Assembly (NCBI RefSeq): GCF_964355755.1
Contig: NC_092670.1
Coordinates: 24,055,201-24,119,200 of the forward strand
Length of the DNA: 64,000 bases
Direction: 5' to 3'
DNA from: Antedon mediterranea
Lineage: Eukaryota > Echinodermata > Crinoidea > Comatulida > Antedonidae
This document shows positions 1 to 43,227 of the stretch, in pieces. The notes beneath the pieces are model-generated. The model was not told the DNA's origin and searched no databases. It saw only the letters and a program-made list of their open reading frames with translations. Numbering within the stretch: the first letter of the stretch is position 1; each line of letters begins with the position of its first letter. The position numbers and the translations under genes were made by a program.

Positions 1-2994
1 AGCCTATTCTCTGTAGGCCTAACTGTATCTCCAGCCAGTATCATAGCAAAGTACCATGATACAGTATCACATGTGTTTCACAATATCGCCAAGTACCATA
101 GACCATAACCTAACCCTTAACCTAACATTACATGATGCAGGCACATCATGTGATACACTTGAGATGCTGTATTACGGACATTTCCTGGAGACTGGGCACA
201 TAATGTTATAAGTGAAGATACAGCACTGCTATTCGGATGTAAAATCAAGATGATGTGCTGTATTAACGCGAGGTTGTATTTGCCCCAGTTTCACTTGTTC
301 GTAATCGTTTTTACGGTTTTACATCATCTCTAGAAAGAAAACATGGTCATTTGTCTAAAATTTAAAAGCAAAAACTGTAGACAAAGTGACACTTTAATTG
401 CAATATTGAAACTGATTGGCAGAGCATTACCTTTATAGATACCATTTGTATTTTTTGATAGACATTTAGACAGATGCAGACAATTGTTATTACGCCACAG
501 TTTTTTAAGTATCTGGCCGGCCTTCATCATTAAACCATTGAATTTTACGATATTGTTATAAATACTTTTGGCTAAACTCATAATCTACATTCTCGCTTAA
601 CATAGGGAGAGGTAGTTTGGATCTACGTAGGCCTATCTTACGTTTGTAACGGTACCATGTTACATAGAACCCTATTAAATGGACACCTTCGGAAACAAAT
701 TAAGTGTAGCCGTAGTCGAGGTGTCCCAAATGAGATCTACTGTACTTCGAAATTGACAAATACATGCACTCCAAGAACTTACCAAAACACTTTGCAAATA
801 GGGAGGGCATTAGAGGGCGTGCTATTTAATATTTCGACCCATATTGAAGATATAAATAACTCGAGCTTTTAGTAATCTTTTGTGACGTTACTATATACAG
901 TATATCGATTTTCCTGTTGTCGTTTTTGAAAGGACGATTGTATCAAGTAAAAAGTAATTTTTAAAAATGCATATGATGCCTGCTAGTCTACTGTCTGAAC
1001 TAATACAGTGCTTACAATATCGATTTTGTTCTCTCTCCAGTGAACTCTATCATTCCGTCTTAAGTTTGTAAGTTCAACTTAAAAAATAAAGAAATGTTAT
1101 ACGTTGATGAAATGACTGATTGATTAATTTTTTCGTTACTATAGACTATATTCTTTAATCTTATTTCTTGTGGATAGTTTAAAAACCGTCTGTTAATGTC
1201 ACTAAAAAAACCCAGTAATGAATGATGTGCCGAAAATGTCTCAAAATGTGTATGAGTTGTCGCTGTACAAAACAATGTTCATTAGAAGTGTACATTGCTG
1301 TCTCGTTGTTGTTGTAATAAGAGAGAGTTGAGAGAGAACCGTGGACCGTCAACCTTTACTTTTGTTGTGGTGATTACTAATGTAATCATCTTCGATACGT
1401 GCTTGGAATAATATTCCATGGAATAGTTCGAGTTGAAGGGAAAGCAATGTATCCTTTTATTAACATTTGGGTTAAACAACCCAGAGGGTTTATTATTATG
1501 CCCACATTCTAAAAGCTATAGTTTTAAGAAGTACCTGTAAACCTGACAATCAAACGTGTTCAGAAAGATATTTAATGCGTTACTATTCAATATTCATACT
1601 CTGTTGTTCACTAGTAATGACATTTAATAGAGTATTCGTTAGGGAGTAAAGAACATTTTACAGTAGAATTATATGAATATTTAATATAGATTATCGCTCG
1701 ATATAAGATAAGTTTTTGTACGCGTTTAAATTTACTTTATTTTATTCTCTTAAAAAGAGATCAAAACAATTGAAATACATATTATAATTAGTATCATGAT
1801 ATTAATATTTTTGTAGTTGCAAATTAACGACGCGTCTGTGTATACTTCCATGTCCCTTCTTTTGTGATGAAGTCCCTGATAAACTTTCTAACGAAGGTTT
1901 TTTTTCCATCCCAAACTTGTCGAAGCTCAGCGACGCCAAATTAGATATTTTCACCGTTTTGGCGTCGATTTGTATCTGTAGGCCTATTTGTATGCTTAGT
2001 TTCCAGTCGGCATTTCAATCTCTGTCTGTAAAAACTAGAAATCAAACGTATGAAACGTTATGTGTGCCAAAATATGTTTTTACCCGAATCACCGTCTATA
2101 ACCTAACAGTTCCTATGGAGAAAACAGGCAAAACTCAATACTTGTTCAAAGTGCATTGAAAACTATGCAGAAACTTATTTCTCCTAGTGGTTTGTGTTTA
2201 GTAGTGTAAAAGTGCAAACGCACACGTAAATAACTTGTTTAAAAACATGTTAAATTCTCCCTCATCTTGAAGTTCACAATAAATTGTCCTAAAATAAATG
2301 ATACATTTCGCTGAAAATGTATCATAAAGCTAAACAGTGCTTTGTTGGATCTTTTTAACATGTTATTGTTAGATGTCATTAATGTAATTTCAATTAAAAA
2401 AGATTTTAATACGAATTAAGTCCCAAACGACCTGTCGAAATATTGTCACCATAAAGAGCACAAAATTCAAATATAATTTATGACACGCTCCTCACAGGAT
2501 AAACTGCACTTTGTACCGTATACAGTGTATTGGATAATGTCGAGTCTGATAAAGCCGATTTTAGGCTTAGTATACGTACAATATTTGTTTTATTACATAC
2601 TAATTACTATAGACAATATACATCTTAATTTTATTCCGTTTATTGTTTTATTTCGAAGTTATATTCACATAAAACATCGACGGTCCAAATTTATAATATA
2701 ATCCACGCAACCACATCGATGTATCGTGACGTCACAAAACTAGAGGGTTAACTCGCTTCGCTCGCATACATTCTAGAAAGTAAACGCATAACGATGACAA
2801 AACGTTGACCTCTATTTTACAAAAATACTGAACTTTTTTTATTTGACCCCCCTGATTTGGGTTTTATTTTCCCTTATTGGAATAGAAATTCATTTTAAAA
2901 TGTAATTACAGATTTGTATATTAATGCACAAACGTTTGATTCCCAGGTTTTTAAACACACCGTTCAGAATTACGAAAGTTCTGTATTCGGCCAT

Positions 2995-3022
2995 AGAGAT
3001 ATTATAGTACTATAATATCTCT
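2995..3022. repeat. 28-bp perfect palindrome
   Basis: The sequence reads AGAGATATTATAG, then TAC, and returns as its exact reverse complement with no spacer. It could extrude a cruciform or be the centre of a decayed MITE. No flanking duplication was found. Confidence 0.8.
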
Positions 3023-4470
3023 GTGATTCGGCTAAACCCTCTTAAATCCTTGTATTATTCAATAGCCCGTATGTGATGTCTCCTGCTTACGTCATAACAC
3101 GGATTTCCTACGATATCGTTTTGATCGATATGTTAAACCATGTAGATCTTACTTGATTTGGAAATAAGTAAATCCGTCGCCAAACTATCATGTCCTTGCG
3201 AGCACATGCGGCGCGAGTATGCTCGAGGGCTACAGTATATATAATATAATATTCCTAATCCAAAATATGTCCTAATTTTTTAAATAAAAATAGGCCTAAA
3301 ATGCATCGGCTGAATTATGAATGTATTTCACACTAAAAAGGCAAATCATAATTCCGGTTGTACTGTATTATATTGCATAGCCAATGATTTATTCCCCAGG
3401 AGTACTGGAGGAGCTGCATATGTGTTTTAATAATTCATTATTCTTGTAAACAAAATAATATTGTATAATTTTGTCGTTTTCCCACGAGAAAATTGTGGAA
3501 AGTTGTTGTAATTATTTTCAGACCTCCTGATTGATTTACGCTGTTTTGAAGGCGAAGGATTAACTTGTCGAAAACAAAACGATTACGCATGATGTGAAGT
3601 TTTAAAAGTTTGCACTTCGTTGACAGAACCATCAACACATTTAAAACAGTTTAACTTGTAACTGTTGTCAACATTGTATATGGTACCGGGTTTAAAATTA
3701 TTTTGTATTCACAACAACACTCCTTTCGCATTGCGCACCAAACCTGCAAACACTGCAATACGTCGGTGGTTGTGCTGGCGACCATGCAGTGTGTGTGTAA
3801 ACTTTGGATCGAGTTCGAGTTTTGGGCGATAAAAGTGGTATGCGTACTCAGTGATACGATATTCATTTATGATGATCACATACATTACATAATCGTTGGT
3901 TTCCGGTGCCAAAACCGTGTGGTTAACATATTGCAGGCCTACAGTTAATGCAATTACAGAAACTTATATATATATATGTACAAATATGTAAACTTAATTA
4001 TCTTTTAGAGGAACGTATATTTCGACAAGACATTTCTGGAAGAGAACAGTCGTGTAAAAATCCCATTCGAAATGATCATTAAAAACGTATTTGTTAGTAT
4101 CATAAAATATTATAGTTGCTGATGGCAGACACGTTAGTGTAACCTGTTTATTGTCACTAGATATGATACCGTACGATTATCGTAATATAAACTTGTATAA
4201 TGATTGACAGATTTATTACTTTCAAAAGTCATTATTACTATTGATTAAAAATTGTAGAAATTAATCAGATTGGTTTAAGGGCGGGATGGTTAAAGACACC
4301 GTTTAAGCATTCAAGCCTAAAGCGGAATAAAGTCGTTTATGTTTGAAGGCGTTTAATTTATCGCCATATTGAACGGACGTGGTTTTCTACTGAACACTTA
4401 CAGTAATTCTTTCAAAACGGACATTCTCAAAGAAAATCATTCATAATTGCGTATGTTAAGATACGCCAAA

Positions 4471-4634
4471 CGTAACGAAGCTAATTTATAGATTTTAAGA
4501 CGAACATCATAACAGGGAGTCTCAATCACAAAGTTATGACACTATAAGCAGGAGAAATACATTTCTCATGCTTATAATTGAGACTCCCTGTTATGATATG
4601 ATCGTCTTAAAATCTAGTAAATAGCTTCGTTACG
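4471..4634. mobile_element. MITE-like inverted repeat
   Basis: Left arm from CGTAACGAAGC and right arm ending GCTTCGTTACG are inverted copies of about 55-60 bp, both containing the AACAGGGAGTCTCAAT core. A spacer of about 50 bp separates them. This fits a small non-autonomous DNA element. No coding content. Confidence 0.7.
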
Positions 4635-6866
4635 TTTTGAGAAATACTCATTTCGTTTTCTGTATAATTTTGTTATTTTTTTCATCAATAATAATGCGTT
4701 ATTACTGAAGTGTTATTTCTATAACTATAAATGCGACTGTTTGAACTTGATTGACCATATGACCATAAACCACTCTGTGATTCACAAACTTACCGATTAT
4801 GAGTTTCATAGTTTGACCTCGTGTTTTATGAACGCTTTTAGTTGGCGTAATTACAGTACCAAGTGCTATCAATTAATAAACCAACAGTTTAAAGGCACCA
4901 CAACAGCCGCGGATAGAGAAACGGTCGTGTAAATTATCAGTTAGATCAACTCTTCGTTTGGGAAACAACAACACGAAATGAAAAAAAAAGCTTAAGCCTA
5001 AAGGTTTTACAGCAGTAACTGATGTTCCAGAGTCGTACGACGAGTCGTCGCGTCGGGATAAAATTAAACATGTTTGAAGTTCTCGCGACGACAAACTACG
5101 CCCGACGCTATCTCTTTCGACTCGTCTCGTCGTGCTGCAACTCAGATATCACCGTCGATCCAAGGCACTTGGCCTTTATTAGAACAATAGTTGTCCAATA
5201 TTTGGTTGAACAATATTATTACAATGCCCGCCTTTCACCCATCTTAAGCTTTTTTTAATTTTTTTTTTAATTTGACAATTACGACGACGCGATGATCATA
5301 ATTAATATATCTTGCTTGCTGTACATACGTCATTGCGTCGCGCCCTTCTAGTGGGAACCAAACGTTATCTTTGTAATTGTAATGTTCTAAGAGAGAGGGT
5401 ATCCTCCGCATGACTGCCCCTGAGTGTCACTTATTAGCCAATTCTCAACATACGTCAGTGTTGGAACTCTCCCTTTCATTTCGGAGTAGGTCTATGGTCT
5501 AAAACAATACTAACAGGTGTTTCCACATAGTACGTGTTTTCTAATGCATTGCATGCAATCTACATCATGTATTAGTTGCTATCGTCGATTATAACCCATA
5601 TTAAGAGGACACCTTTGTGACCCAACAAACTGTCCCCTGAATATATCACTGCTAAAACATTATATTATGTAGTATTTTCCACGTCCGTCTCATAAAGTGT
5701 ACCCCTTTAATGGGTTTTCCTAAATGAGGCGTGTCATCCCCAACGAATTTTCAAATGTATAAGTCTACCCCTCTTGATCGTCCAAACTGAACGATACGCC
5801 TAGTTTAGTTAGTCGGGTTGTTTGAAACAATCGTAACGTTTCTGCGACACATGTATAACATCTTTGATACTCTGTTTTGTTATATTAATATATAATAGAA
5901 TTTGTTTTAAATAAATATACCAGTGAGACGTTGTCGCCTCTTTGCATCTGTCAGCATCATTATCTGCCGAAAGTAGTCCGAGACGTTCATGTTTTATTCA
6001 TAGTGAGGAAGATGTGTTATAATTAAATTAATCAGTATAGGTAAACAAGTAGGTAATATAATACTGTTTTTCTTACATAGTCTTATTTACATAAACGATC
6101 CAGACAGATTATTTCAGTTTGTTAGTTACCATATTGTTTTTCCTATTATGGTAGTCATCTTCAAAAAAAAAAATGAAACAATAAAATAATGATTAATGGC
6201 ATTAAATGATAACATGATAATGAAAAACTAAATTTGCTTTATTCTTAGAGGGCATGCGTTTGAAATCATGTTTCAAATCATAGAGTGGCCCCTAAAGTTA
6301 AGACTGTTATGCGAATCATTTTATTCATGCGAATCGAAAGCGCTGCGTATTCTGTGACGTAGAAAATTGCGCAACCAATCCGGATTTAGGAATGTTCGAT
6401 TCACGGAAGAATGTATTCGCCTCTGACTAAAAAAATGGCCGCCTCACGTGACGGGAGTACAAAACTATGTTCTACACATACCACTTTAGTCTACGTTTAC
6501 AACCCATCGCGGAAAAAAACCGTTTATATAAAAAAAAATGAATTATAATATTATTGAGAAAGGCAACCGACGTATGCCCTGAGGTAGGATATATTGAAAA
6601 TTGGACATTGATGAATGAGAGACGGTCCGACGCATTTGAACACGATCTGCATTTTCCCTAAGACTGTTTTCTGCCAACTTATATCACTGAATAATGTTTT
6701 CTTACTTTTAAAACCAATAACCGAATAAAGAATTTCATCTACGCATTTTTTTTTATCTCTCCAAATCTTACAATTTTGTGATTTAGAATGATATGCGCTT
6801 AGTCGAGGTACCGGACTACGTCCAATCTTTGCCAGTTGCATGATAGAGGGAGGTATACATGATTTT

Positions 6867-6926
6867 AATTCCTGACTTCATACTATTTAATAAAGGCTCT
6901 TTATTAATAGTATGAAGTCAGGAATT
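6867..6926. repeat. Long hairpin, about 27-bp arms
   Basis: AATTCCTGACTTCATACTA at the left is matched by its inverse TAGTATGAAGTCAGGAATT at the right, with the arms continuing toward a short AGGCTC loop. It is a foldback repeat or MITE remnant and overlaps no gene. Confidence 0.7.
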
Positions 6927-8392
6927 GAATTCATCAAACTCGAGTCTTATACGTTTAAGATTAAATTGTGTTTATTTTAACATGTATAGTTTGACGATCA
7001 TTCAAATGCAAAGCGATTATAACTACGAATTACTTCTACTCGTCGTTAGAGTGTTATAATAACAACTTAATCTTTATATTAATAATATCACTTATATTCA
7101 AGGTCCTTAGTATTAACACAAGACTGGAATTTAAGGTGACATAACCGTTCACTGAAATGCTGAACAAACGGTTATTTTATGTAGACCGTACTTAGCAACC
7201 CCGTAGACAGGATTTAAGTTTTACAGGGGATACTTTTTTTTCACAGGCAAGCAATTGTCTCCAATGATTTGGCCAAATTTGAGCTAGCCCCAAAGCCGTC
7301 CAATACAGCAATTCGGTTATTGTCTGTAGTTTGGAGGGTTGGTTCTCCAGAAAAAAGCTGCAACAACATGTTGGGAGCAGTCTCATCATACGTGTTGTCC
7401 AACGACCGGAGTAACTGTGAAGCGCTTTAAGGCTTTGAACATGCGCTTATGTAAGAACGGTGATTATTAGGGCATATACTAATAACTATTTAGCCATTTT
7501 AAATAATAGTCTGGGTTCCAGACGGTGTTTTGACTTAATATTAGTAAAAAGAAAATATAAAAAATAAAAGACAATGAATACAGACTTGGGGCAAGTAATT
7601 ATTCAATTGGTTTGTACTGACGTGACCTGATTATCTTTGATTTAAAAGAACGTGCATCCATCCTCAAATGGTGCTAATTGACTTGTTGATGACTACACTT
7701 TGAGACCTGTTAAATTCAGTTTAATTACATCGTAACACAGGAGTAATTGATTGCTCTAACGCAATTTAAGTATCAATATTGTATAACATCATTAAAGCTG
7801 TTGATAAATTGTTTATACTGAGTTATACAATTTAGAATTATCGCCTTGTCGTCAAATGTTTTTTTTTCGTTCTATTTTTAAATCTCAATACATAAATAAT
7901 GATTTATGTGTTATGATACATTCTAATAAAATATCTTACTATTTAGCATAACTAAAGTTAGGCCTAAAATGTAGGCCTATACATACAATAGATTTTATGT
8001 ATAATTGCTTTTTTGTTTGCGAGGATGGATTCATTTCCTCGATATAAACTGTCCTAACATTTCTTATTTATCATGGCTTTGTTGTAAGGAAAGTTCTCCA
8101 CTGCGATTGATGTGGAGCTTTGATTTTGAAGAAAATAAACATTTTAATATAGGCCTAGTAGCCTACTAAGTAGTTTTGGATTAAAATTGGGTGGTGGTAG
8201 ATAGTAGAGGAAGGGAACTTTTAGAAACGATGGGGGCGCTCTTTGTGAAGAAAATAAATTAGAGCGAGGAGCAGGAGCTGAGAGGAGGAGGCCATGCAAT
8301 TCAATTAACAACACAAAAAAACAGGTGTCGTGTGTTTTTTTCGTTGATGAACAAATGTGTAGGCCTAATTTCCCCATCATAAATATAAAATC

Positions 8393-11300
8393 ATGTCCGA
8401 AAGCACAAATGCCGAGAAGCGTTATTTTGCTCTGTACACGTATCATACAAATAGGTACAATTACGTTTCGTTTTAATGTTATAAAATGTATTATTGTATG
8501 AATATAGACTTAGAGGCCTAGCTAGGCCAGAGGGGGCCTAGCTAGGTAGGCTAGATAGCTAGGCTATAGGCCTAGAGAGTATAGGCTAGGTAGGTACAGC
8601 CCCCTGCATGACTGACCCTGTCTGCGGACCTAGCCTAGACATGGGGAGGCTGATATAGGCTATCCGATCTTCCAGGCCTAGTAGTAGTTAGGGATAGGCT
8701 TCATCATCATCATCATCATCAATAATATTCGCCCGGCGGCAGTAGGATCCAGCCAGTATAGGAGTTTATTTTTGAAATAAAAAAAAATGTTAATATACTG
8801 ACTGATACAGTAGGCCTATGATGATATGGTTTATTCTGAAACTCAAAGACATTATTGTCGTATCCTATTCACAATTGATATGGTCAACCGGGGGTGTCCA
8901 ATGCATTGAAACAAATTTGACTGTACGCCTTTTGAACTAGGCACACCGTGTCAATAAACGCTATGTTAAGATGCAATCATGTTGATGGAAAATAATAATG
9001 ATTGACCCATGCCATGGAGGTATAAAATTAGATTTTTAGAAAATTAGATACCTCCATGATTTTTATTTTTTTATTTAATCGGTATAAAAAGACTCAAAAT
9101 ACAACTCATAGTTGAAATGAAGAGCTTACATATGAAAATGATAATTCACATAAACAAAGTTAAACGAAGAAAAAACACATTAAAGCCTATGAAACAGTAA
9201 TAATTACTGTATAATTCGTTAAACTTAAAATTACTATAAAAAATGCACAAATTCTTAAATATTTACAATTTTAAAAAAAAGAGACTAATATTAATAATCA
9301 CATTATTTTTATACACCAATAAAATATATGTAAAATTCATTAAACTAAAAGTACAATAAAAATTGCACAAAATTCAAATTCAAAGGATGATATTAATAAT
9401 TACAAATTCTTATATATTTACAAATTTAAAAAATTGAATCTTATAAATCACATTTTTATAGGCCCATAAATAGTTACAAAAAAAAATTTGACCTATGCCA
9501 TGCCTATATAGACTATATTATAGCACTATTTTTATAGCACCTAGACTATATATTTATTTTGAATAGGTCCACGGGAAATGACACTTCTTCAATCACTGAT
9601 GAACATGACAATGGGGTGTCTGAATTTTTACAAAGAGAAGCCATGTTTAACAGCGATTTCAGGTATTACATGCTTTATTCAAATTTATTCAGTATTCTAA
9701 CATATTCAGTATAAATAAAATAACATAACATACTTACTGTTGAAACTATTTTGTTACAGTCTGTCTGTTATAACTACAAACCTAGAAGCAGAACAAGAGA
9801 CAATGTTGAGAGGATTTATTGCAACAAGATTGTCCAAGGGAACAGTGTTTAGTGGAATTGGAGACGTGACAGATTTTCATCTAGAGTAAGAAACAACATT
9901 TGAATTTTCTAGAGAATGATCAACTGTCTATAAACCTTGATCCGCATTTTTTATAATGTTTTATTTCCTGGTGTGAACCAGTGTTAAAGCACTTTGAGCT
10001 TATTTGATCTCTTTGGACAAAATGGAAAAACTATTTTTACTGTGTTATGTTTGTCATACTTACGAAAATTGCTTTGTGCGAATAACAGGAACTTGATTGA
10101 TTTGACATGGAACCTATGTAAATTATGCTTTTTGTATTAGATGTTGCCCAGTTCTGTAAAATTGATTTCAATTTTTTTTCAATATGACTTTACCGCCAAA
10201 AACGGTTGAAATCTGAATGTCTGTGATAGCAGGATCCAAGGTCGTCACCTGGTCCTTGTCATCGCAAAATCAAAATTTCCTTTTCATTTTGAATAAAAAC
10301 TGATTACTTACATCAGTAACATTTTATAAATAACACCCTTTGTTGACATAAATTTATTATGATAATTGGTTATCCGCACTTGGCGGTTAACCTCTTGTTA
10401 TTGTCAGGATCTTTTTTTTTTTTTTTTTTTTTTTTTTTCTATGTTATTCTTCTTTCTTTCCCAAAATTTTGTGTCACGTGTATCTCAAATTCTGATCAAC
10501 ATTACATCGTATAACTTTGTCAGAAGATTTACCTCTATGTGTAGAAGTGCAGGACAGCTCGTTTTTTTACTTTAGAGTCGCGCAGCGTAAGCTACGCGCG
10601 ATTTTATGAATTTCGCGTATTTAACATAGACTAAAAAGCAAAAGTCATTTTGTAATGACACTTGGTGAACATTTAAGTCATATCAAGGGCAAACTTTCTA
10701 TGGATTAAAAATGGCATGTTTGACATAAAGTTACGCGCGCACGCGCGTTTAAAATTTCAAGTTGCGAAAAATTCATTTCTAATCAACTTTCTACGCGTTT
10801 CAGGTCATTTTGAGCATTTCAAAAATTCCCACGCGTGCGCATATTTTTTACGCCCGCGTGCGCACGTAGCGCAAAAACATCTTTTTTTTGCTTGATTTTT
10901 GTTTTTTCAGCCTTTTCTAGTACATTTACCAATTTTCAATCAATTTCGACTTAAAATCACGTCATACGAGCACGTAGAATTGAACCAATTTGCGCGCGTT
11001 TTTGATGAAAAAGTTAAAAAATTTGTGAAAATTATGCCTTTTTTAAAAAAGTCATAGATTCTAAACTCCGAGGTGAAAATATTTAAAATTTCAGATTCTG
11101 GAAGTAGATGAGTTGTTTTTCTCGAATCATGCATTGATATGGCTAACCAGACATTGTGACGTCATCGTATGGCCACCCGAATATAAAATATAGGATTTTT
11201 TTCTCTTTCGTCATAGCTCGTCAATTTAATAGAGCGCATCTCTACTTATCCTTATTCCATTTCACTCAATTTTTTTATATTGTCTAGATCAATCAATTAC

Positions 11301-14300
11301 CTTTCGCATGATCCACCATTTTAAAAATTGTGATGACGTCATCATGTTCAAATGCGTCAATAACTTTGGTCACTTATTTTCACCTATTCTGCACTGTATG
11401 TAGTACGTATACAGTATATAGTGTTATACCGTATATACTTAGACGCGACGCAACATAGAGAGCGCACTAACATTTTTCAATGCCATAATCGTTTTATTTT
11501 TTTGCGCGCACTATTCTAACGTATGACGTGCACGTGGCTTTTGCACTGCGGATAACCTAACTCGTCCGTAGTGACGAGTTCAAATCTAGTACTTGTTTGT
11601 TGCTGTAGTATAATTTATCTAATCAAATCCCATGTCTATGTCTCTTCTTTATAGTGAAGAGAAACTTCAATGTTATTATTATCATCTAAGAGAATTAAAT
11701 GATGAACATGTAGCAGACAGTGAGTCATCTATGTACCCATCTGAAGAGTATGTCGTCTGTTTCCTAGCAACAGCTGAAGATAGTTTGGATTTATATCCTT
11801 TATAGAACATAATATGAAAGCTATGCACACACTGAGATTGGATTTTGTTTCAGTGGCCGGATACAAATTTGTGAAATGGGTGTAGTGTTTAAGAATAGAA
11901 CCGTTGATACTAAACTGAGGACCATATGTAAAACACGTACTATATGTATACCTGATATGTTTTTATCCTGTATAAATATGTTTTAAATAAATAAATTTCA
12001 TACTCTTTACCAAAGCCAAATTGTACAATTGACCATTTTTTTAAGTTGTTATCCAAGAAACTTGTTCCACCAACAGGGATGAGAGGAGAGCCTTAAATCT
12101 TTTTTTACTATAGATTACAGTCAGTGCCCCTGCTTTAACCGCTTGGCCACTTAATTCACTGAACACCATGAAAATAGAAGTTGTTTATTCAACTAACCTG
12201 ACTTACTACCTTAACAAATTTGTTCACGTTTCGTGTAGATTTGGATTCCTATAGTGAAGAACTTCTACCAATGTTAGATAGTGAGGTAAATATTGACAGT
12301 AGTATGCAATACAATCTTCTGGTTGTGCTCGCTTCTCTATGACGCCCTCTTTTAAAATACACTTTGTTTGAAAATAAAAGTCTATTTTACATCACAGATT
12401 TTTTAAAGAGCCATAATAATTCATACCACAGTAAATATAAATATATGATATAAACATTTTATTTCCATTGGTTAGGCGTGACTTTACAAGTTGTTAATAT
12501 CTGTATGTATTTTTACTTGTAGATGAAAGCGGTTGACAAGGTACAAATTTACATGTCTAAATGGTATGAACAAGCAGTGCAATATATAACCAGGTCTATC
12601 AAGAAACTAAGCAGTCAACTCTCAATACTGTTACATGAGGTGTGTTAAAATAAAAAGGGTTTATTTCAATTAATTCCTTAAGTACAATCAAATTCAATAC
12701 AAGTACAATACAAGTTCATTTAAGTACAATACAAGTCCATTTCAGTTAATAAAATTATATAAGTACAATACAAGTCCATATAAGTACAATACAAGTCCAT
12801 ATAAGTACAATACAAGTCCATATAAGTACAATACAAGTCCATATAAGTACAATACAAGTCCATATAAGTACAATACAAGTCCATACAAGTACTACAAGTC
12901 CATATAAGTACAATACAAGCCCATATAAGTACAATACAAGTCCATATAAGTACAATACAAGTACTACAAGTCCATATAAGTACAATACAAGTCCATATAA
13001 GTACAATACAAGTCCATATAAGTAGGCCAACAATACAAGTTCATAGAAGTACAATAAAAGTTCATTTAAGTACAATACAAGTCCATATAAGTACAATACA
13101 AGCCCATATACTGTAAGTACAATACAAGTCCATATAAGTACAATACAAGTCCATATAAGTACAATACAAGTTCATATAAGTACAATACAAGTCCATGTAA
13201 GTACAATACAAGTCCATATAAGTACAATACAAGTCCATATAAGTACAATACAAGTCCATATAAGTACAATACAAGTCCATACAAGTACAATAAAAGTCCA
13301 TATAAGTACAATACAAGTTCTTAACGGATGGCTTTGTACCAAAAGATTGGAAACTCGCGAATGTCACTCCTATTTTTAAGTCAGGTAATCGTAACGATGT
13401 TAATAATTATCGACCCATATCGCTATGTTCTATTATAGGTAAGGTTTTTGAACGTATTATAGCAGATAACATTCTTTTTCATCTTCAATTTTTTGGATTT
13501 ATAAGTCCCACGCAACACGGGTTTTATCCAGGTAGATCGTGTATTACACAGGCCTCAGCGTTATATCATGATTGGTCACAAGCAATGGATGTTAGACAAC
13601 CTCCTGTAATTGATGCAATATTCCTTGATTGGGAGAAGGCCTTTGACCGTGTTCCCCATGATTTAGTAATCAAGAAACTGCACAACATGGGAGTATGTGG
13701 ATCTCTCCTAAAGTGTCTTCACTCCTTTCTCAGTGACAGATTCCAACGTGTTGTTCTTAATAAGGAGCATTCTGATTGGGATAGAGTGGGCTCGGGTGTT
13801 CCTCAGGGATCAGTGTTAGGCCCGCTTCTATTTAATCTCTTTGTTTATGACCTACCTCTAAATACCTCTTCTGTTATGAAGCAGTATGCAGATGATACAG
13901 TAATTTATAAACCTGTATTCAGTCGTCATGATGCACTTACCTTACAATAGGATCTTTGTAAAATTTCCAAATGGTGTGAGGATAATAAAATGAAATTAAA
14001 TGCAAAGAAGTGTAAAGTTATGCACATAACTAGGAAACGTAATTATATCCCTCATTTTATTTATACAATCGAATCCAATCCCCTTGAAGCTGTTAATTCA
14101 CATAAATATCTTGGTATTAACTTCTCACGTGATTTAACATGGTCTGCTCACGTTAATGATGTATTGATGAAATCTATGAGAATGCTTGGGTTTATCAAAC
14201 GGTTTGTAGGTTTCAATGACACCGAAATTTTACTACGACTTTTTAATGCACTATGTCGACCTGTTATTGAATATGGTGCTCCTGTGTGGGATCCACATCA

Positions 14301-17300
14301 AAAACAACATAATATAGCTATTAACAAGTCATTAAGACGGGTTACTAAATTGTGTGTCGAAGGCGATTTCACTGACAGGCTTAAGATACTAAATTTACCA
14401 GATATGGTTCAAAGAATGAAATTTCATAGTATAATTTTTGTAGTTAAGTGTTTGCATAATTTAATTGATTTTGATATATTTGAATACCTTACAATTAATT
14501 CTCGGTATCTAGAGTCGCTCACCTTTAAACACATGTATGCTAGAACTAATGCATTTAAATACTCCCTGTTTGTTAATTTCCCTCGAATATGGGAATGTAT
14601 CCCGCATGAAGTTCGTAACAAAGTCCTGTTTAACTTTGGGGGGTTTAGAAGGGATTTGAAAAAATTGTATTACTGATATCGAATTCATCTAGACTATCAC
14701 TGTGTTTTTATGTCTATTGCGTTTTTCGTACTATTAGTTGGGAAAGCCACTCGACAGTGCAGTTCTTTTGAACTGATCCACTTTTGGTTACCCGCAGGTG
14801 CTGATAGTACTTTTGTTCTGTTTTGTTGAATGATGCCGTACCTTGTTTATGATTTTTGTATGTTACCTGGAAATTGAATAAAATAAAATAAAATAAAACA
14901 TATAAGTACTACAAGTCCATACAAGTACAATACAAGTCCATACAAGTACAATACAAGTCCATACAAGTACAATACAAGTCCATATAAGTACAATACAAGT
15001 CCATATAAGTACAATACAAGTCCATATAAGTAGGCCAACAATACAAGTTCATAGAAGTACAATACAAGTTCATAGAAGTACAATACAAGTCCATATAAGT
15101 ACAATACAAGTCCATATAAGTACAATACAAGTCCATATAAGTACAATACAAGTCCATATAAGTACAATACTACAAGTCCATATAAGTACAATACAAGTCC
15201 ATTTAAGTACAATACAAGTCCATATAAGTAGGCCAACAATACAAGTTCATAGAAGTACAATACAAGTTCATAGAAGTACAATACAAGTCCATATAAGTAC
15301 AATACAAGTCCATATAAGTACAATACAAGTCCATATAAGTACAATACAAGTCCATATAAGTACAATACAAGTCCATATACTGTAAGTACAATACAAGTCC
15401 AAATAAGTACAATACAAGTCCATATAAGTACAATACAAGTCCATATAAGTACAATACAAGTCCATATAAGTACAATACAAGTCCATATAAGTACAATACA
15501 AGTCCATTTAAGTACAATAAAAGTCCATATAAGTACAATACAAGTCCATATAAGTACAATACAAGTTCATAGAAGTACAATACAAGTTCATAGAAGTACA
15601 ATACAAGTCCATATAAGCACAATACAAGTGTGTCCAACATTTGTACGTCACGTTAATTCATTATGTGTATGCAAGGAAATTTAGATGTGCTTCGACGATA
15701 AAATTTGAGTTGATTCTAGATCCGCAATATGCACCTAAAGCTTGATGTGACAAAAAAATGCCCATATATGATGTCATATCACTACCATATTTGTGCATAT
15801 CACTACCATATTGGGGCACATTACACTTTTTTTTCAAACTAGTTTGATAGTGTAGATAGAGATTAAGTCATATCATGACAGAAATCTCAGCCAGTGCACT
15901 TCGGTAATTATATCCATACATATAATATTATTATTTTTTTTTTTCTCTAGACTATTTCAAATTCAAAAGTAGAAATTGAATGTGATGATAAAGTCACCGA
16001 GTTAGAAATAAAGAGGTATGTGCATATTATTTACATAAATGTTTGTTGCGTTAGGGACACTTGTATTATATGGTTTTCCCTGTAAATTACTAACGCATAT
16101 CAATTTTCTTTGCTGTATATAATTACATTATGCAAATATATGCTTTTATTTTATTTGATTACAAACTTGACAAAATATTACCATAATAATTTAATAATGT
16201 TTGATTACCATTTAAATTACTAAAATGTAAATGAATGTCTGTCTGTCTGTAAGCAAAATGTTATTTAAAATGTGTTCTTTTTGTAAGATTCACAGCCTAA
16301 ATTTTTGTTCAATAATTTAATTATATTTTTTTTTTTCAGATTTATGCATTGTTGTAGCCTTTCTGACCTTCTTCTACAAGCTAATGACCGAGGTAGCGGT
16401 CATCAGGATTCCTCATCTGAGCCTAGTCTTATTGACTTTGACGAAGCAAGTTCAAAGGTCTTTGACCTCAAAGCAGACAAAGCGGTGAAGATGTACATTA
16501 AAGAAGATACCATTACCTTTGACAATTCAGGTATGATTAATAAGAGTGACCGGTCGTGCGGCCCATATCCATAACATCGACAATGGTTTGCAGCACACTA
16601 GCTCCATGGTATTGGTAGTGGAACAAGGACTATAAACCATAGGTCCTGCAGTGTACAAACATTGCTCGTGTGCACTTTAAAGAACCTAGTACATCTTTTG
16701 AGGCGAGTAGGAGGTTACTCCGGTGTACTAGTTCAGATGAGAGAGCGTCTTAAAGTGACTGCACTGACATTACATGACCCTTAGGGAGAAGCATGTAGTT
16801 GAAAAGTGTAATCCGAGTTTACAGCGTCATGAGCAATGAACCATTTCTTGGAATTGGGCGCTACAAGAACTTGCATATTGCTTTTCTGACTGCTTGAAAG
16901 CGGATTTGTATGTATAATGCAATAGTCTCCTCAGAGCGTACATACATCTTGCATTTCAAGTCACCAAAAACACTACTTTTTATTTCACAAACATTCTGAA
17001 ATGTACTTTAGGGTCTGAGAGTAGGGCAAATATCACTTTTCAATAGTGCCCTGACAAAACTATACCAATCACTTATTATTCTTATAACAATTCTGTTCAT
17101 GAATTATGTTTTAGTTGAAAATGACTTTTGTAAAGAATGGATGAATACACTACTGGATGCATGCAACAGCAACCCAGCCTACAGTCGCCAAGTGATTGAG
17201 AGCTATAAACTTAGAGTTATTCAAGATATGAACTTATTAAAACGCCTCGTAAGGCAGGCAGAGTCGGACCATTATGCTCTCTACAGGTAAGGATATGGGT

Positions 17301-20060
17301 TATTTTGTGTACATTTTTCTTCTGTCATCTCAAAATTGTGTTCATATCTTAATTATTCCATTTGACAAAAATCACATTCAAGGGATATTGGACTTACAGC
17401 CTTACTTACGTACTCAAGAACTGAAAAAAGTTTGTTTGATACTTGGAAACAACTAGCAATAGTTACTACCTAAAATTCAAAGCAAGAACCAATAACTTAG
17501 ATTTAGAAGGCAGAAAGCGATTATGGTCAGATTCCTACCCAGGCCATTGTCTCATTTGTAAAAGTAATTCAATAGAAACAATTGATCATTTCTTGTTTAA
17601 TTGTGTAAGTTTATCCTCCATAAGGAATACTTGTTTTAATGAATTGAAAAGTGACTTATATACAATTAATGAACATTATTGGGACATTTTTATTAATGGT
17701 TCAACAGAATTTAAGCATCACTTATTACTAGACGACATATATAACTTGTACCAAGATAAAACAATTTGCTCCATTTTTGACAATAAAAGTAAATCATTTT
17801 TAATTAAAGCTATGTCACATAGGACTGAAATATTGAAAAACATTTCTACCCTTTATTTATGATTTTTTTGTTCTTTTCTCTTCTTTTTTTGCTGTTATTA
17901 AGTCAGTAGAATTTGTGCTGCTTGATATTATGAAATTGTGAACCATTATTAACTTTTTGTACCTGTATATCGTGAATAAAAATACTGAAAGATGAGGGCG
18001 TATCAATTTGATCTCTTTTGCGCGTGCGTACAACTGAGGACTAGTGCTGTTCCGCCGTACCACGCCAAGAATGTTAAAGAGTCGTTATCCGATCGAGTTC
18101 GAACAATACCATGAAAGCCCCAGTGGTCTAATGGTTAGGACATCTGCATATCAAGCAGGCGGTCCGAGTTCGAGTCTCGGTTGGGGCGACTTTTTCTCAT
18201 TCTCACAGATTTCCTCATCTTTATCGTTTCAAATTAATTAATTAAATTTCAGTTTATCACCGGGCGGTTTAGAATTAATGTTCTTTGCCTCTTGTGTTTA
18301 TATATATAAAAGTATCTCTTCGGAGATCCCGCCTCGTGAATAAAAATACTGAAAGATGAGGGCATATCAATTTGATCTCTGTTGCGCGTGCGTACAACTG
18401 AGGACTAGTGCTGTTCCGCCGTACCACGCCGAGAATGTTAAAGAGTCGTTATCCGATCGAGTTCGAACAATACCATGAAAGCCCCAGTGGTCTAATGGTT
18501 AGGACATCTGCATATCAAGCAGGCGGTCCGAGTTCGAGTCTCGGTGGGGGCGAATTTTTCTCATTCTCACAGATTTCCTCATCTTTATCGTTTCAAATTA
18601 ATTAATTAAATTTCAGTATATCACCGGTCGGTTTAGAATTAATGTTCTTTGCCCCTTGTGTTTATATATATAAAAGTATCTCTTCGGAGATCCCGCCTCG
18701 TAAATAAAAATACTGAAAGATGAGGGCGTATCAATTTGATCTCTGTTGCGCGTGCGTACAACTGAGGACTAGTGCTGTTCCGCCGTACCACGCCGAGAAT
18801 GTTAAAGAGTCGCTATCCAATCGAGTTCGAACAATACCATGAAAGCCCCAGTGGTCTAATGGTTAGAACATCTGCATATCAAGCAGGCGGTCCGAGTTCG
18901 AGTCTCGGTTGAGGCGACTTTTTCTCATTCTCACAGATTTCCTCATCTTTATCGTTTCAAATTAATTAATTAAATTTCAGTATATTACCGGGCGGTTTAG
19001 AATTAATGTTCTTTGCCTGATTTGTTTATATATATAAATTGATACGCCCTCATCTGTCAGTATTTTTATTTACGAGGCGGGATCTCCGAAGAGATACTTT
19101 TATATATATAAACAAATCAGGCAAAGAACATTAATTCTAAACCGCCCGGTAATATACTGAAATTTAATTAATTAATTTGAAACGATATATATATATATAT
19201 TGTAATAACTGTATGACTTTATTTTGTAAACAGTTTGTATGGGTCGAACCTCTTGTTACGAGAGTGTTCCTCCGTTTTAAAGGAGAGTAACCAATAAATA
19301 TTATTATTATTATTGCTACATGCTGAGGCTGCTAATTTACCTTACACTCTTATCTACTGTATAACAATTGTTTCCCTAACCCAAACAAATGTCCACCTTT
19401 TGAACCAACTTCTTCTATGCCACACATCGTAAGAAAAAATCATTAATTTTCTCTGAACTCAATTTCAAGTCTTTTTCTTGTAGAATATTAGAATTCTGGT
19501 CTGAATATTTCTTTGGTTGTTTCTATTGAACATAAATGCAGTACAGTAGTTACATTTTTTATGTCTTACAGTAAGCTCTGTCTACACTATCAAACTATTG
19601 TGACAAAAAAAGTGTGATGTGCCCAAATATGGTAGTGATATGACAATACGTACGGGCACATCACATTTTGTTGTCACGTAAAGTTTGATAGTGTAGGCAT
19701 AGATTTAGTATATACATTTTATCCATGTTTTTATATGACAGTGATCTTATGAATTTTGGCGTACTTGTGGTTCGGATCCCCAAATTGAGCCCATTTTGCT
19801 TCCTTTTGTTCTTTTAAGGCATCTGTTCAAACTTACCCTTTCAAGTTGCTGACCTTATACATACTTGTTGTCCCGATCCCCAAATTGAGCCGCTTTTTGC
19901 TTCCTTTTGTTCTTATAGGGCATTTATTTTCTTAAAGAAATGTGGAAACTGTGCAGTTCTTTTGAAACACACCAACGTTGACTGCTCTGCAATGTCAGAG
20001 GATGCTAATCATGTGCTTAGAATCTTACAAGAGTTTGTGCTACAGGACATACCTGCTTAA
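8393..20060 (+). CDS. C17orf75: C17orf75 / NJMU-R1 homologue, WDR11-complex subunit
   Basis: Ten coding exons give a 388-residue protein (human is about 396): 8393-8454, 9567-9662, 9760-9885, 11655-11792, 12228-12285, 12523-12639, 15951-16015, 16340-16530, 17115-17286, 19919-20060. All junction phases agree. Matches to the vertebrate family run from end to end: YFALYTY near the N terminus, DFSLS, then GFIATRLSKGTVFSGIGDV, SEEYVVCFLA, LFRVDLDSY, FCKEWM, and KLRVIQDMNLLKRLVRQAE followed by FLKKCGNC. The known family member binds WDR11 and FAM91A1 and helps capture AP-1 vesicles at the trans-Golgi network; transfer of that role here is inference. The ATG at 8393 is the only start giving the conserved N terminus. 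Exon 4 joins exon 5 through an AT-AC U12 intron. Intron 6 is swollen by a minisatellite and a LINE. A weak ATTAAA signal lies at 20071. Confidence 0.95.
8510..8720. repeat. TAGGCC/CTAG-rich island plus ATC microsatellite
   Basis: A short island just inside intron 1 of C17orf75 is built almost entirely from overlapping GGCCTAG, CTAGCTAGG and TAGGCTA words, which are self-complementary. It ends in a (CATCAT)n run near 8701-8720. It lies about 60-270 bp downstream of exon 1. A similar island lies upstream of NUBP2 at 60187-60440. Function unknown. Confidence 0.6.
10368..11557. mobile_element. TIR element in C17orf75 intron 3
   Basis: The left end GGTTATCCGCA is inverted at the right end as TGCGGATAACC, bounding about 1.2 kb. 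The interior is noncoding and unusually CpG-rich (GCGCGCACGCGCG stretches), with a poly-T run at about 10410-10438. A diverged copy of the interior recurs at about 54390-54715, including the TTACGTCATACGAGCACGT-type block, so it is a dispersed family. No transposase is visible, so it is non-autonomous. The 11-bp TIR is short and no clear target duplication was found; the boundaries are therefore approximate. Confidence 0.55.
11793..12227 (+). other. U12-type AT-AC intron (C17orf75 intron 4)
   Basis: The 435-bp intron begins ATATCCTTT, exactly the U12 AT-AC donor consensus. It ends AC, with TACCTTAAC at 12207-12215 matching the U12 branch consensus TTCCTTAAC at eight of nine positions. The branch adenosine is about 13 nt from the acceptor, in the usual window. 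Splicing here yields LDLFRVDLDSY, which aligns with the family sequence LELFRLELDKY. No GT-AG solution restores that segment: the only nearby GT donor is a poor GTTTGG, and the alternative acceptor TGTAG|AT deletes FRV. The call is therefore supported by splice signals and protein conservation independently. Confidence 0.92.
12690..13320. repeat. 21-bp minisatellite, left block
   Basis: Tandem copies of a 21-bp unit, AAGTACAATACAAGTCCATAT, lie in C17orf75 intron 6. Variants include a CCATACAAGTACTACAAG shortening. A longer variant carries AGTAGGCCAACAATAC followed by a TTCATAGAAG unit and recurs in the right block, giving a higher-order structure. Because 21 is divisible by three, several frames stay open as 7-residue periodic peptides; these are not genes. 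Confidence 0.95.
13321..14898 (+). mobile_element. 5'-truncated non-LTR retrotransposon (LINE) with RT
   Basis: One reading frame runs from 13321 to 14676 with a single internal TAG at 13948-13950. It encodes a Jockey/CR1-group-like reverse transcriptase from the early fingers onward. The NYRPIS block, motif A FLDWEKAFDRVPH, motif B GVPQGSVLGPLLF and catalytic motif C QYADDT are all visible, followed by the thumb and C-terminal region (LNAKKCKVMH, RPVIEYGAPVWDP). The upstream ORF1 and endonuclease are absent, as expected from incomplete target-primed reverse transcription. The 3' end is a short (AATAA)n tail at about 14876-14898. It sits exactly between two blocks of the 21-bp minisatellite, on the same strand as the host gene. 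The clade assignment is tentative. One nonsense codon and otherwise intact catalytic residues suggest a fairly young insertion. Confidence 0.9.
14899..15630. repeat. 21-bp minisatellite, right block
   Basis: This continues the same 21-bp unit on the far side of the LINE, with the same higher-order variants (AGTAGGCCAACAATAC at about 15030 and 15228; TTCATAGAAG units near 15050, 15250 and 15565). Sharing of variants between both blocks implies one ancestral array, either split by the LINE or re-expanded after insertion. Confidence 0.95.
15760..15890. mobile_element. MITE copy, GTTTGATAGTGTAG family
   Basis: The right end reads AGTTTGATAGTGTAGATAGA. Internal CATATCACTACCATAT and GGGCACAT words match the fuller copies at 19570-19710 and 29665-29790. 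It lies just upstream of C17orf75 exon 7. The left terminus is degraded. Confidence 0.6.
16540..16765 (+). mobile_element. tRNA-derived SINE fragment
   Basis: This directly follows exon 8 of C17orf75 and shares the block GTGCACTTTAAAGAACCTAG plus GACGAGTAGG-like and CCGGTGTACTA words with a second copy at 61713-61960. The tRNA-like head (promoter boxes) is decayed in this copy and better kept in the other. Non-coding. Confidence 0.6.
17300..17970 (+). pseudogene. LINE 3' end with RT-associated zinc knuckle
   Basis: The open frame 17443-17862 encodes YYLKFKARTNNLDLEGRKR, followed by CLICKSNSIETIDHFLFNC. The latter is a C-x2-C...H-x4-C knuckle of the kind found at the C terminus of many LINE reverse transcriptases. 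The preceding LRTQELKK segment is in another frame, so the element is frameshifted and 5'-truncated. It lies in C17orf75 intron 9 and its 3' end (GTGAATAAAAATAC) runs directly into the 364-bp tandem array, whose units begin with the same words. A coding role is unlikely. Confidence 0.7.
18117..18188 (+). tRNA. tRNA-like gene, anticodon ATC (Asp-type), copy 1
   Basis: This folds as a complete cloverleaf: acceptor GCCCCAG pairs with TTGGGGC (one G-T), the D stem is GTCT/GGAC, the anticodon stem is TCTGC/GCAGG and the T stem CCGAG/CTCGG is perfect with loop TTCGAGT. The loop ATATCAA places T33 before anticodon A-T-C at 18150-18152, so it would read GAT (Asp). The discriminator is G, as in Asp tRNAs. 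The A box (TGGTCTAATGG) and B box (GTTCGAGTC) are good, and a T5 Pol III terminator follows within 3 nt. The body otherwise resembles tRNA-Glu. A34 Asp tRNAs are not expected in eukaryotes, so this may be a SINE-like or neofunctional RNA rather than a translating tRNA. Confidence 0.7.
18481..18552 (+). tRNA. tRNA-like gene, anticodon ATC, copy 2
   Basis: It is identical to copy 1 through the T stem and keeps the same ATC anticodon and promoter boxes. The 3' acceptor strand is TGGGGGC, which creates one A-G mismatch. A T5 run follows at about 18555. Transcription is plausible; processing and charging are doubtful. Confidence 0.6.
18845..18916 (+). tRNA. tRNA-like gene, anticodon ATC, copy 3 (decayed)
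   Basis: Same body and ATC anticodon. It has a G-to-A change in the D-stem 3' strand (GTTAGAAC) and an acceptor mismatch (TTGAGGC). It is probably a pseudogene of the array. Confidence 0.55.
19036..19190 (-). repeat. Inverted copy of the 364-bp unit ends
   Basis: The reverse complement carries the unit tail (ATTAATTAATTAAATTTCAG, then CCGGGCGGTTTAGAATTAAT), the CTTCGGAGATCCCGCCTCG segment and the unit head TGAGGGCGTATCAATTTATA. Together with the end of unit 3 it forms a hairpin of roughly 90-bp arms, followed by a (TA)n run at 19185-19200. Confidence 0.8.
19195..19320 (+). mobile_element. Retroelement 3' end with (ATT)n tail
   Basis: A stretch ending AACCAATAAATATTATTATT has a short trinucleotide tail, in the style of LINE/SINE 3' ends. 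It is too short to classify. Confidence 0.4.
19570..19712. mobile_element. MITE, CTACACTATCAAACT family, fullest copy
   Basis: Left end CTCTGTCTACACTATCAAAC and right end GTTTGATAGTGTAGGCATAG are inverted copies. The interior carries GTGATGTGCCCAAATATGG. About 140 bp, no coding capacity. Related copies are at 15760-15890 and 29665-29790. Confidence 0.8.
19762..19918 (+). repeat. Duplicated 3' splice-site region before C17orf75 exon 10
   Basis: A segment of about 56 bp containing CGGATCCCCAAATTGAGCC and TTGCTTCCTTTTGTTCTT occurs twice, 100 bp apart. The downstream copy ends in the real acceptor TTATAG at 19918. The upstream copy ends in TTTTAAG at 19818 and is a decayed or cryptic acceptor preceded by the same pyrimidine tract. 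Confidence 0.8.
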
Positions 20061-20998: not shown

Positions 20999-23900
20999 TT
21001 ATTTTAAACTGTTGGTAAACACGACAACAAACAGTAAACAAACAAAGCCTCCTCCAGCACCTCCAACTGCGTAGATCCAAACATTTTGACCCTTAAAGAA
21101 AAATGAATTTAACATAAGGACAAGAAGTACTTGAGGCCCACAACATTATCTCAAGCCAGCAAGAATGAATTTTACATAAGTATTTCATGGTTGTGATACT
21201 GTCTTAATCATAGAGGTATGCCACTAAATAGTATGCTTTAACCAAATCTGTATTATTACATCATCTACACTAAGTAAATCCAAAAAAAGGAACAACAATT
21301 ACACACAATTTACCTGTTTGTCAGTGGGCTTGCCAGGCATGTTACCAGAAGCTTTGGGAATAATATACAATCAAAATGTTAGTTGCATTGGATTGAAATT
21401 TATTTAATTCAGTTTCAATTTATCTATTAAATACAACCTGTCAGAAATATTAGTAATTGTACTCTTTAAATATTATGCATTTAGACAAACTGATTGAAAC
21501 ACTGTATTTAATTCTAATTCTGAGAAAACAATGTGTAAACATACTGTAGCAAATGGTAGACTTACGAGGTTGTCGATTACAGACGATTGATCCAGTATCA
21601 GTGTTAGTGTAACCATTACACTTCAAGCATTCCATCTGACCTTCCTTTGGCTGATAAAAGCCTTTTGGACACAGCTGACAGACTGCTGGCAGGTTATCAT
21701 TTCCACGATACGACCCAGGAGGACAGTTTACTGCAGGGGAAAAATATTTAAAAATAAAATGTTTTAGAATAGATTCTTGAAAGGATTGTGGTCTGGGTGT
21801 TTCGAAAACTAAGACCTAAGATGTCTTAACCAAAAGGTCTTTCAATAGGAACTCCTGATTATTTTATGTTTAGGTTTTAGATTATTGTTTTTTAGAGTCT
21901 TTGATTCCTATTGTCATGAGAAATTACTACTGTACTGAGTTTAGTCTAACAAATCTTACAGGGTGCTACATAATTTTGATATTTGTCCGTAAAGATTGTT
22001 TATAAAGTGATTGCGTACTTAAAAAGATCCAGACTTACCACAAATATATCCATCAGAGTGCGCATATTGAGTGCTGGGACAGATTGGACCATTCACGTTT
22101 GTTTTAAACTCCGTAACTTCAACTATATAACCACGATGTTCAAATTGTTCACCTGGCGTCAATAACGATTGTAGTTCAGTAACTTTGGCAAGAACACGTT
22201 CGATTTTGTGTTTAACCTGATATGCCGATTCATTCCGACTTGCTTGTGTCATATCAATTGATGTTGCATTGGTACTTTTTATTTCGAATCTGATCCGAGT
22301 AAGAAAGCTTTTTCCGTTTGAATCCAATTCTTGATAATTCAGAGGTTCGAATTCGTTGATATCAATGACATTTGCAATAGCTCCTTCCAATGACATATGT
22401 TTTTCCGTTGAATTGAAATCAGCTCGATAAAGATGAATAGTGATAGGACTAGAGAACTCCGGCATTGATATTCCAAGAACGTGAAGTCTAGCAGGATCGG
22501 ACAACTGTCGTCCATGTTCGTTCCAGGCTCCACAAGTGTACCATCCGTCTTGGTTAAATTCTGGGCTTAATATCTCTATACTCGAGCTATTCTGACCTGG
22601 AATTGCTTCCATATCTGATGACGACGAAGCCTGGAAGTACCATTGGTAGTCTGCTAGTGGTTGAGCAAATGCTTGACAAGTTAAGAAAGCGCCTTCGATA
22701 TTACCATATTCAATAGTTGTGTCTGTCGGATGCTCCGTAATCAATGGTGCAAACTCAACCTTGACGTCACACTGTAGAGATGAAACTGACGTCACTGCAT
22801 TGCTAGCCTGACAAGCGTAAGTACCAGCAGTAGACGAGTTTACCTGTTCTAGATGTAGCAAGTTTGAATATTTTCCATCCAGTGGTTGACCATTAAACGT
22901 CCAACTGAATGTTGGGGAAGGCCTACCAGTAGCTTCACATGTCAAAGTGATATTTCCTCCTTCGATTGTTGTGATATTTGGTTTAGGATGCTGAGAAATA
23001 ACAGGCACTTCTAAACACACATCGTTGTTGTCTTTGAGAAAGGTAACTTGACTTAAAACAACCACTCCGCCTAACTTGGCCTCATCGATATTTGAAATAG
23101 TACTATTCAGAAACGTTGCCACATAACTATCAAGTGCAACAGTATTCTGGTAAGAATGTCGATCCTCTGACAAATGTATCAAAGATATCAATTCAGTTGT
23201 TAAGCAATCATAGAACCCTTCACAGTCAGTCAGACCACTAGAGTTACGAGTATACATGTCCATCACAGTTTCCCATTTAGTCATCACATCAACCGCAAGT
23301 AATGATTTCGTATTTTCTGCTTTAATTTTTGCAGAATCAATAACCTGTGATAAAGCGCCTTGCTGAACACCAATTAAATATGTTGTATTAGTTTCTTCTA
23401 AATCTTCCACAGTTAGGTTAAAATACAGTAATGCTGAGCTATTGTTAATAACATTTGGTGACGTTGATACTGACAGATTGTACATATATTCACTGTGGAA
23501 CTCTTCTTCTTTGTTTATAGATTGTATTTCAGCAATGTTAGTCATGTCTACGATCTCTAACAGTGTTTCAAATGAATGCTCGATAAATCCAAGAATATCA
23601 TTGAATTCTTTGCACCTATTTTCGTTCTGAACGACTCGTTGATCACGGAAAAGTTCACTGGTTATATTGAGGTCTAGTGAATTGTTTACCACATTATATT
23701 TAACCATTTCAATAGGCGGTTGATGAATGATATTAGTTGTGTCACGATTCTTACGTAGTCCGAGTCTTCGGCTGCCCACTCCTCTTTTCCTTCTAATCGA
23801 TCTTGTTATATCACCAAACAATTCTTCAGTAATAAAAAGTGCAGCTTTTTCAATTGTATAATCCAGGTTATTGGCATCAATGAATATTTGAACCTGTACA

Positions 23901-43200: not shown

Positions 43201-43227
43201 GGGCGGAACTCTACAACAAAGGAATAA
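40200..43227 (+). pseudogene. DIRS RT - RNase H - methyltransferase-like polyprotein
   Basis: The RT is recognisable by FTRPKKDGGFRMILDLSKLN, TSVDLKDAYFTVPI (motif A), LPNGLSS (motif B region) and LLVYIDDI (motif C, YxDD). A 1-bp frameshift near 40740-40750 separates motifs B and C. The foldback element 41079-42161 splits the connection domain. RNase H follows at 42380-42770 with IETDASGLGWGA, NYLELLAAF, VDNTTAVAYL and RDNIIADAKSR, so its D-E-D-D residues are present. Residues DLFASRHNAQ, PDPDSIGIDAF and AFPPF at 42840-42990 match the DAM-methylase-like domain found in DIRS1-type elements. The stop is at 43225-43227. Confidence 0.88.
41079..42161. mobile_element. Foldback DNA transposon, 90-bp perfect TIRs, 10-bp TSD
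   Basis: GGGTGTCACGAAAGC at the left is exactly inverted at the right for 90 bp (41079-41168 and 42072-42161). The 10-bp target TAGGAAAGTT is duplicated at 41069-41078 and 42162-42171. The TIR contains two direct CACGAAAGCTCAGACC subrepeats. Inverted similarity continues inward for several hundred bp (TAAATTGATGATTTTACA near 41535 against TGTAAAATCATCAATTTA near 41941), so nearly the whole element is a foldback. No transposase is encoded. A 9-10-bp TSD and GGG-start ends are compatible with a Mutator-like (MULE) origin; that is inference. Confidence 0.92.

Follow-up and report, generated by a model that had tools for sequence, protein, structure and literature searches.

The locus examined here lies in a window of 64 kb of the Antedon mediterranea genome (the whole stretch of DNA that was analysed) and raises the question of which spliceosome removes an intron that begins with AT and ends with AC from a gene of the Njmu-R1/C17orf75 family. 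A sequence-only reading had proposed a U12-type AT-AC intron in a trans-Golgi tethering gene. The gene model, the boundaries of which were picked by eye using the reading frame and the splice dinucleotides, is given in Table 1; all eight of its introns other than intron 4 are GT-AG. Our analyses indicate, with a probability of about 0.96, that intron 4 of this gene is of the U12 type, an ordinary AT-AC intron of the minor spliceosome.

The identity of the host gene is clear from the spliced protein, which matched the Pfam family Njmu-R1 (PF15053) with 267.1 bits (cut-off 27), residues 12-382 covering positions 1-350 of the 352 in the profile. It also matched chain 24id_C of the PDB, whose molecule is named Protein Njmu-R1, in phmmer with an E value of 3.2e-59, and this alignment runs without a gap across the junction of exons 4 and 5. 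The likeness to the Njmu-R1/C17orf75 family, a subunit of the WDR11 complex, consists in the near full-length profile match of the predicted sequence. The PF15053 search of the whole genome returned three matches, all within this gene, and no second Njmu-R1 copy was seen in that search, which weak exons can escape. According to PMC5807400, C17orf75 assembles with WDR11 and FAM91A1 in human cells, and trans-Golgi tethering was shown for the human WDR11 complex.

Table 1. Positions, within the window, of the gene model and of the splicing features of intron 4
Feature	Position	Strand	Remark
Njmu-R1/C17orf75 gene model	8393..20060	+	10 coding exons, 388 aa
Exon 1	8393-8454	+	gene model
Exon 2	9567-9662	+	gene model
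Exon 3	9760-9885	+	gene model
Exon 4	11655-11792	+	gene model; ends in phase 2
U12-type AT-AC intron 4 (very probable)	11793..12227	+	435 nt, phase 2, 33% GC; Njmu-R1/C17orf75 gene model
U12-type donor ATATCCTTT	11793..11801	+	motif read in window sequence
Branch site TACCTTAAC	12207..12215	+	presumed branch A = 12214
Acceptor AC	12226..12227	+	read in window sequence
First in-frame stop (TAG) upon retention of intron 4	11803..11805	+	retained-intron translation
Rival in-frame GT-AG pair enclosing the AT-AC intron	11783..12238	+	protein 7 aa shorter
Exon 5	12228-12285	+	gene model; completes LFRVDLD
Exon 6	12523-12639	+	gene model
Exon 7	15951-16015	+	gene model
Exon 8	16340-16530	+	gene model
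Exon 9	17115-17286	+	gene model
Exon 10	19919-20060	+	gene model

Across the junction, exon 4 ends in ...GAT TT, the intron runs from ATATCCTTT... to ...TACCTTAAC AAATTTGTTCAC, and exon 5 opens with G TTT CGT GTA GAT TTG GAT.... The donor matches RTATCCTTT at nine of nine positions and carries ATATCCTT exactly at +1 to +8, while the branch site matches TTCCTTAAC at eight of nine, the mismatch being an A for T at the first base of TCCTTAAC. We follow convention in assuming the second A of TTAAC to be the branch A; it is located 13 nt upstream of the last base of the intron and 14 nt upstream of the first base of exon 5, a spacing that we take to be the usual closeness to the acceptor. The donor, the branch site 13 nt ahead of the acceptor and the terminal AC were all located where the sequence-only reading had put them. 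As described in PMC2831892, the classic features of U12 AT-AC introns are ATATCCTT, TCCTTAAC and an AC acceptor. In addition, U12-type introns are biased against phase 0 (PMC7367187), and phase 2 is found in intron 4 and likewise in introns 1-3 of the gene model.

The support of the protein for particular splice sites was evaluated by combining GT, GC or AT donors at 11656-11959 with AG or AC acceptors up to 12285. The pairs that were in frame and stop-free were kept (n = 144, with GT-AG, GC-AG, GT-AC and AT-AG pairs included), and the resulting proteins were aligned, ignoring splice motifs, to those residues of 24id_C that the phmmer alignment shows. On protein alignment alone, 11793/12227 ranked first of the 144 (score 522), followed by the AT-AC pair 11802/12227 (score 509), and the best GT-AG pair, 11783/12238, ranked 17th (score 481). 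Eight splice models were also scored against Pfam Njmu-R1, giving 267.1 bits for 11793/12227, 261.0 for 11802/12227, 252.5 for 11795/12202, 243.1 for 11783/12238 and at most 229.6 for the remaining four. The ranking and the Pfam scores together indicate that the protein selects the same bases as the U12 motifs; the margin over 11802/12227, a pair that adds residues yet keeps LFRVDLD and is without the U12 donor motif, is narrow, at 13 score units and 6.1 bits.

Against the standard pairs, the earlier claim that LFRVDLD is restored by this splice alone does hold: 19 of the 144 are GT-AG and three are GC-AG, and all of their acceptors lie at or beyond 12238, with the loss of FRV. It goes too far in general, as non-standard pairs such as 11802/12227 keep the segment, at lower scores. 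The placement of a U12-type AT-AC intron within the C17orf75/Njmu-R1 gene was borne out, with motifs, Pfam match and protein ranking in agreement. As for exon skipping and retention, loss of exon 4 would keep the frame by length and drop 46 codons, and skipping of exon 5 was rejected, as it breaks the reading frame. Retention of intron 4 would lead to a stop after ...EDSLDLYPL, that is, directly after LYPL, four codons past the changed reading of the split codon.

The GT-AG pair 11783-12238 encloses the AT-AC pair with offsets of 10 nt on the donor side and 11 nt on the acceptor side, amounting to 21 nt or seven codons, and both pairs might be used in a nested, twintron-like arrangement with the enclosing GT-AG pair as a minor isoform or a fallback. 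U12/U2 twintrons are known in fly prospero and in the fly URP gene (PMC2831892), to which the present case is similar in that GT-AG and AT-AC pairs are nested in frame, and depletion of CENATAC in human cells activated cryptic or annotated major sites (PMC8280824). However, the GT donor here is weak (ATA/GTTTGG matches MAG/GTRAGT at four of nine positions, against five to eight of nine for the eight other GT donors of the gene), and in-frame nesting could be due to chance, given 19 in-frame GT-AG pairs in the scanned stretch. We consider such dual use very unlikely. It also appears decidedly improbable that the arrangement acts as a switch, in which slow, CENATAC-aided splicing of the A-type intron would result in retention (with the stop after LYPL) or in use of the GT-AG pair (with seven conserved residues lost), so that minor-spliceosome activity would set the dose or form of Njmu-R1 as a vesicle-tethering subunit. 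Most likely, intron 4 has no role beyond being removed by the minor spliceosome.

It is highly improbable that the main spliceosome simply removes 11783-12238 as a GT-AG intron. The product, a protein of 381 aa with seven residues fewer (...AEDNLDSY...), would be in frame and stop-free and still reaches its 243.1 bits on the Pfam profile, but it drops the aligned SLDLFRV stretch, stands lower in the protein alignment (481 vs 522, rank 17 of 144) and depends on the weak donor described above. Finally, although U2-type AT-AC introns exist, for example in sodium-channel genes, intron 4 is almost certainly not one of them, as these carry G at +5 (PMC2831892) whereas intron 4 has C at +5 together with a full U12 donor and branch site.

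For the reading as a U12-type AT-AC intron, chance expectation was examined in the window and in the genome. The exact donor motif occurs twice on the forward strand of the window (at 1449 and 11793) and is absent from the reverse strand. Strict combinations (exact donor, at most one branch mismatch, branch-to-exon distance of 9-18, A..AC or G..AG ends, length of 60-20000) were found three times on the forward strand and not at all on the reverse strand; all three start from donor 11793, the nearest of their acceptors being at 12227. When one donor mismatch was allowed, there were 26 combinations on the forward and 15 on the reverse strand of the window, loose pairs being common. The donor 9-mer RTATCCTTT by itself is common in the genome, with 3791 + 3692 occurrences (7483) in 354.4 Mb, a rate of about 1e-5 for each position and strand; its reversed-pattern control is more frequent still (4649 + 4795). 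In the window, sites combining branch and acceptor numbered 8 + 7 in 2 x 64 kb. A rough hand calculation, treating the sites as independent, gives a joint chance of about 1e-9 for one preset pair and about 2e-7 when all 144 pairs compatible with the frame are taken into account. By this rough estimate, a strict motif pair at the very bases demanded by the protein is not expected to arise by chance.

Two control genes were chosen for the purpose, STX6 and KCMF1, both of which are listed with AT-AC U12 introns in fly and human (Table 2 of PMC2831892), and a U12-type AT-AC intron was found in both (2/2) in the Antedon genome. The STX6 intron (ATATCCTTG...TTCTTTAAC) has 15 nt between branch A and exon, an AC end and a length of 1253 nt, and the KCMF1 intron (ATATCCTTT...TTTCTTAAC) has 14 nt, an AC end and a length of 839 nt; their removal restores the frame, giving ...EETIGIVEANPRKF... 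and ...TVRDLDEAAAGRHVRR..., respectively. Intron 4 is like them in the donor ATATCCTT, the CTTAAC-type branch site, the 14-15 nt spacing and the terminal AC, and they differ from it only in host gene and length (1253 and 839 vs 435 nt). The positions of the two control introns were equated with those in fly and human via the human sequences, an equivalence that we assume. Of the other zf-Di19 matches (L009, L011 and a fourth one), the one examined, L009, has no U12 donor/branch pair.

The genome also contains matches to the minor-spliceosome snRNAs above the Rfam cut-offs: one to U12 (125.7 bits), two to U11 (88.6 and 82.9 bits), one to U4atac (97.6 bits) and a strong one to U6atac (136.6 bits). 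The two U11 copies (L004 and L005) have diverged, with a common 5' end and differing stems. A second U6atac-like match (L003, G000:C7:8523554-8523655) is weak, at 33.7 bits vs a cut-off of 33, and is probably a degraded copy, that is, a pseudogene. With the branch site, GUAAGG of U12 (from nt 18) can form six pairs to CCUUA(A)C, and with UCCUUU of the donor, six pairs can be formed both by AAAGGA of U6atac (from nt 11) and by AAAGGG of U11 (from nt 3), one of the latter being G-U. We take these snRNA regions to be the pairing regions familiar from other species. Equal or longer chance duplexes exist with the same snRNAs (e.g., seven pairs, two of them G-U, at nt 59 of U6atac), and the length of the pairing alone is thus unspecific. 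A gene of the CCDC84/CENATAC family is present as well (best match 70.3 bits; five matches within a 3.5-kb stretch of one contig), and CENATAC promotes AT-AN minor intron splicing in human cells (PMC8280824).

By the standard model, UCCUU of the intron 4 donor would pair first with U11 and later with U6atac, and U12 would pair with CCUUA-A-C of the branch site, leaving the branch A bulged. Removal of intron 4 would then join exons 4 and 5 in phase 2 to give ...EDSLDLFRVDLDSY.... The motifs, the reading frame, the fit of the protein, the snRNA genes and their possible pairings are observed; that intron 4 is actually spliced, and by this mechanism, is what we infer.

Several repeats and other features were observed in the window. 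Intron 6 contains 21-bp repeat arrays at 12679-13318 (30.8 copies) and 14899-15629 (34.0 copies), and the segment between them (13319-14898) carries a stop-interrupted reverse-transcriptase fragment (RVT_1, 95 bits) that ends in a tail rich in AATAAA; this looks like the result of a LINE-like element inserting into one of the 21-bp arrays. In intron 9, 2.9 tandem units of 364 bp, each with a tRNA-like gene, occupy 17970-19038, and a partial inverted copy lies at about 19044-19190. ARAGORN assigns the tRNA-like genes to tRNA-Asp, the anticodon being ATC (Rfam tRNA 57.9, 52.3 and 48.5 bits); A34 would be odd for tRNA-Asp. For a 280-bp piece of the array, 159 or more matches were counted in the genome; many are in tandem and 95-99% identical, and some lie beside inverted pieces. 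The array thus resembles a dispersed, tRNA-bearing tandem element of young age. On the reverse strand, 22019-26071 holds an open frame of 1350 aa in which two or more immunoglobulin domains are encoded; it is probably one large exon of a gene for a receptor-like protein. At 37889-39113 there are three tandem copies (97%) of a 412-bp unit. A search of the genome for mitochondrial COX1 returned no match. On the forward strand, 39532-43856 shows, in a row, a reverse-transcriptase trace (22.2 bits, below the cut-off), a Dam-like methylase (29.3 bits) and a phage-integrase N-terminal domain (34.4 bits), an order that, we presume, resembles that of DIRS-type retrotransposons.

AT-AC minor introns are a well-known kind, and intron 4 is almost certainly a further, ordinary example. 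In deuterostomes except tunicates, minor-intron densities are vertebrate-like, as in the starfish Asterias rubens (PMC10639083), and AT-AC introns make up 8 to 47% of the U12-type introns in those animals of Table 2 of PMC7367187 that have them; given this density and this share, finding one AT-AC U12-type intron is expected. No minor intron in C17orf75 was found in the literature by title or start of abstract, a search outside the scope of which lay U12DB, IAOD and supplementary tables, and which is therefore no proof of absence from such listings.

For annotation, it is plausible that gene callers bound to GT-AG could mis-join the protein at intron 4, because the in-frame GT-AG alternative 11783-12238 (381 aa) exists; such a tool would either overlook the split codon or choose this alternative at the cost of seven conserved residues. 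As regards the age of the intron, PMC5807400 reports C17orf75 only from Amoebozoa and Opisthokonta, and this distribution would cap the age of intron 4. The presence of the same AT-AC intron at this codon in vertebrates and also in either protostomes or cnidarians would add another case to the ancient minor introns with a dated origin.
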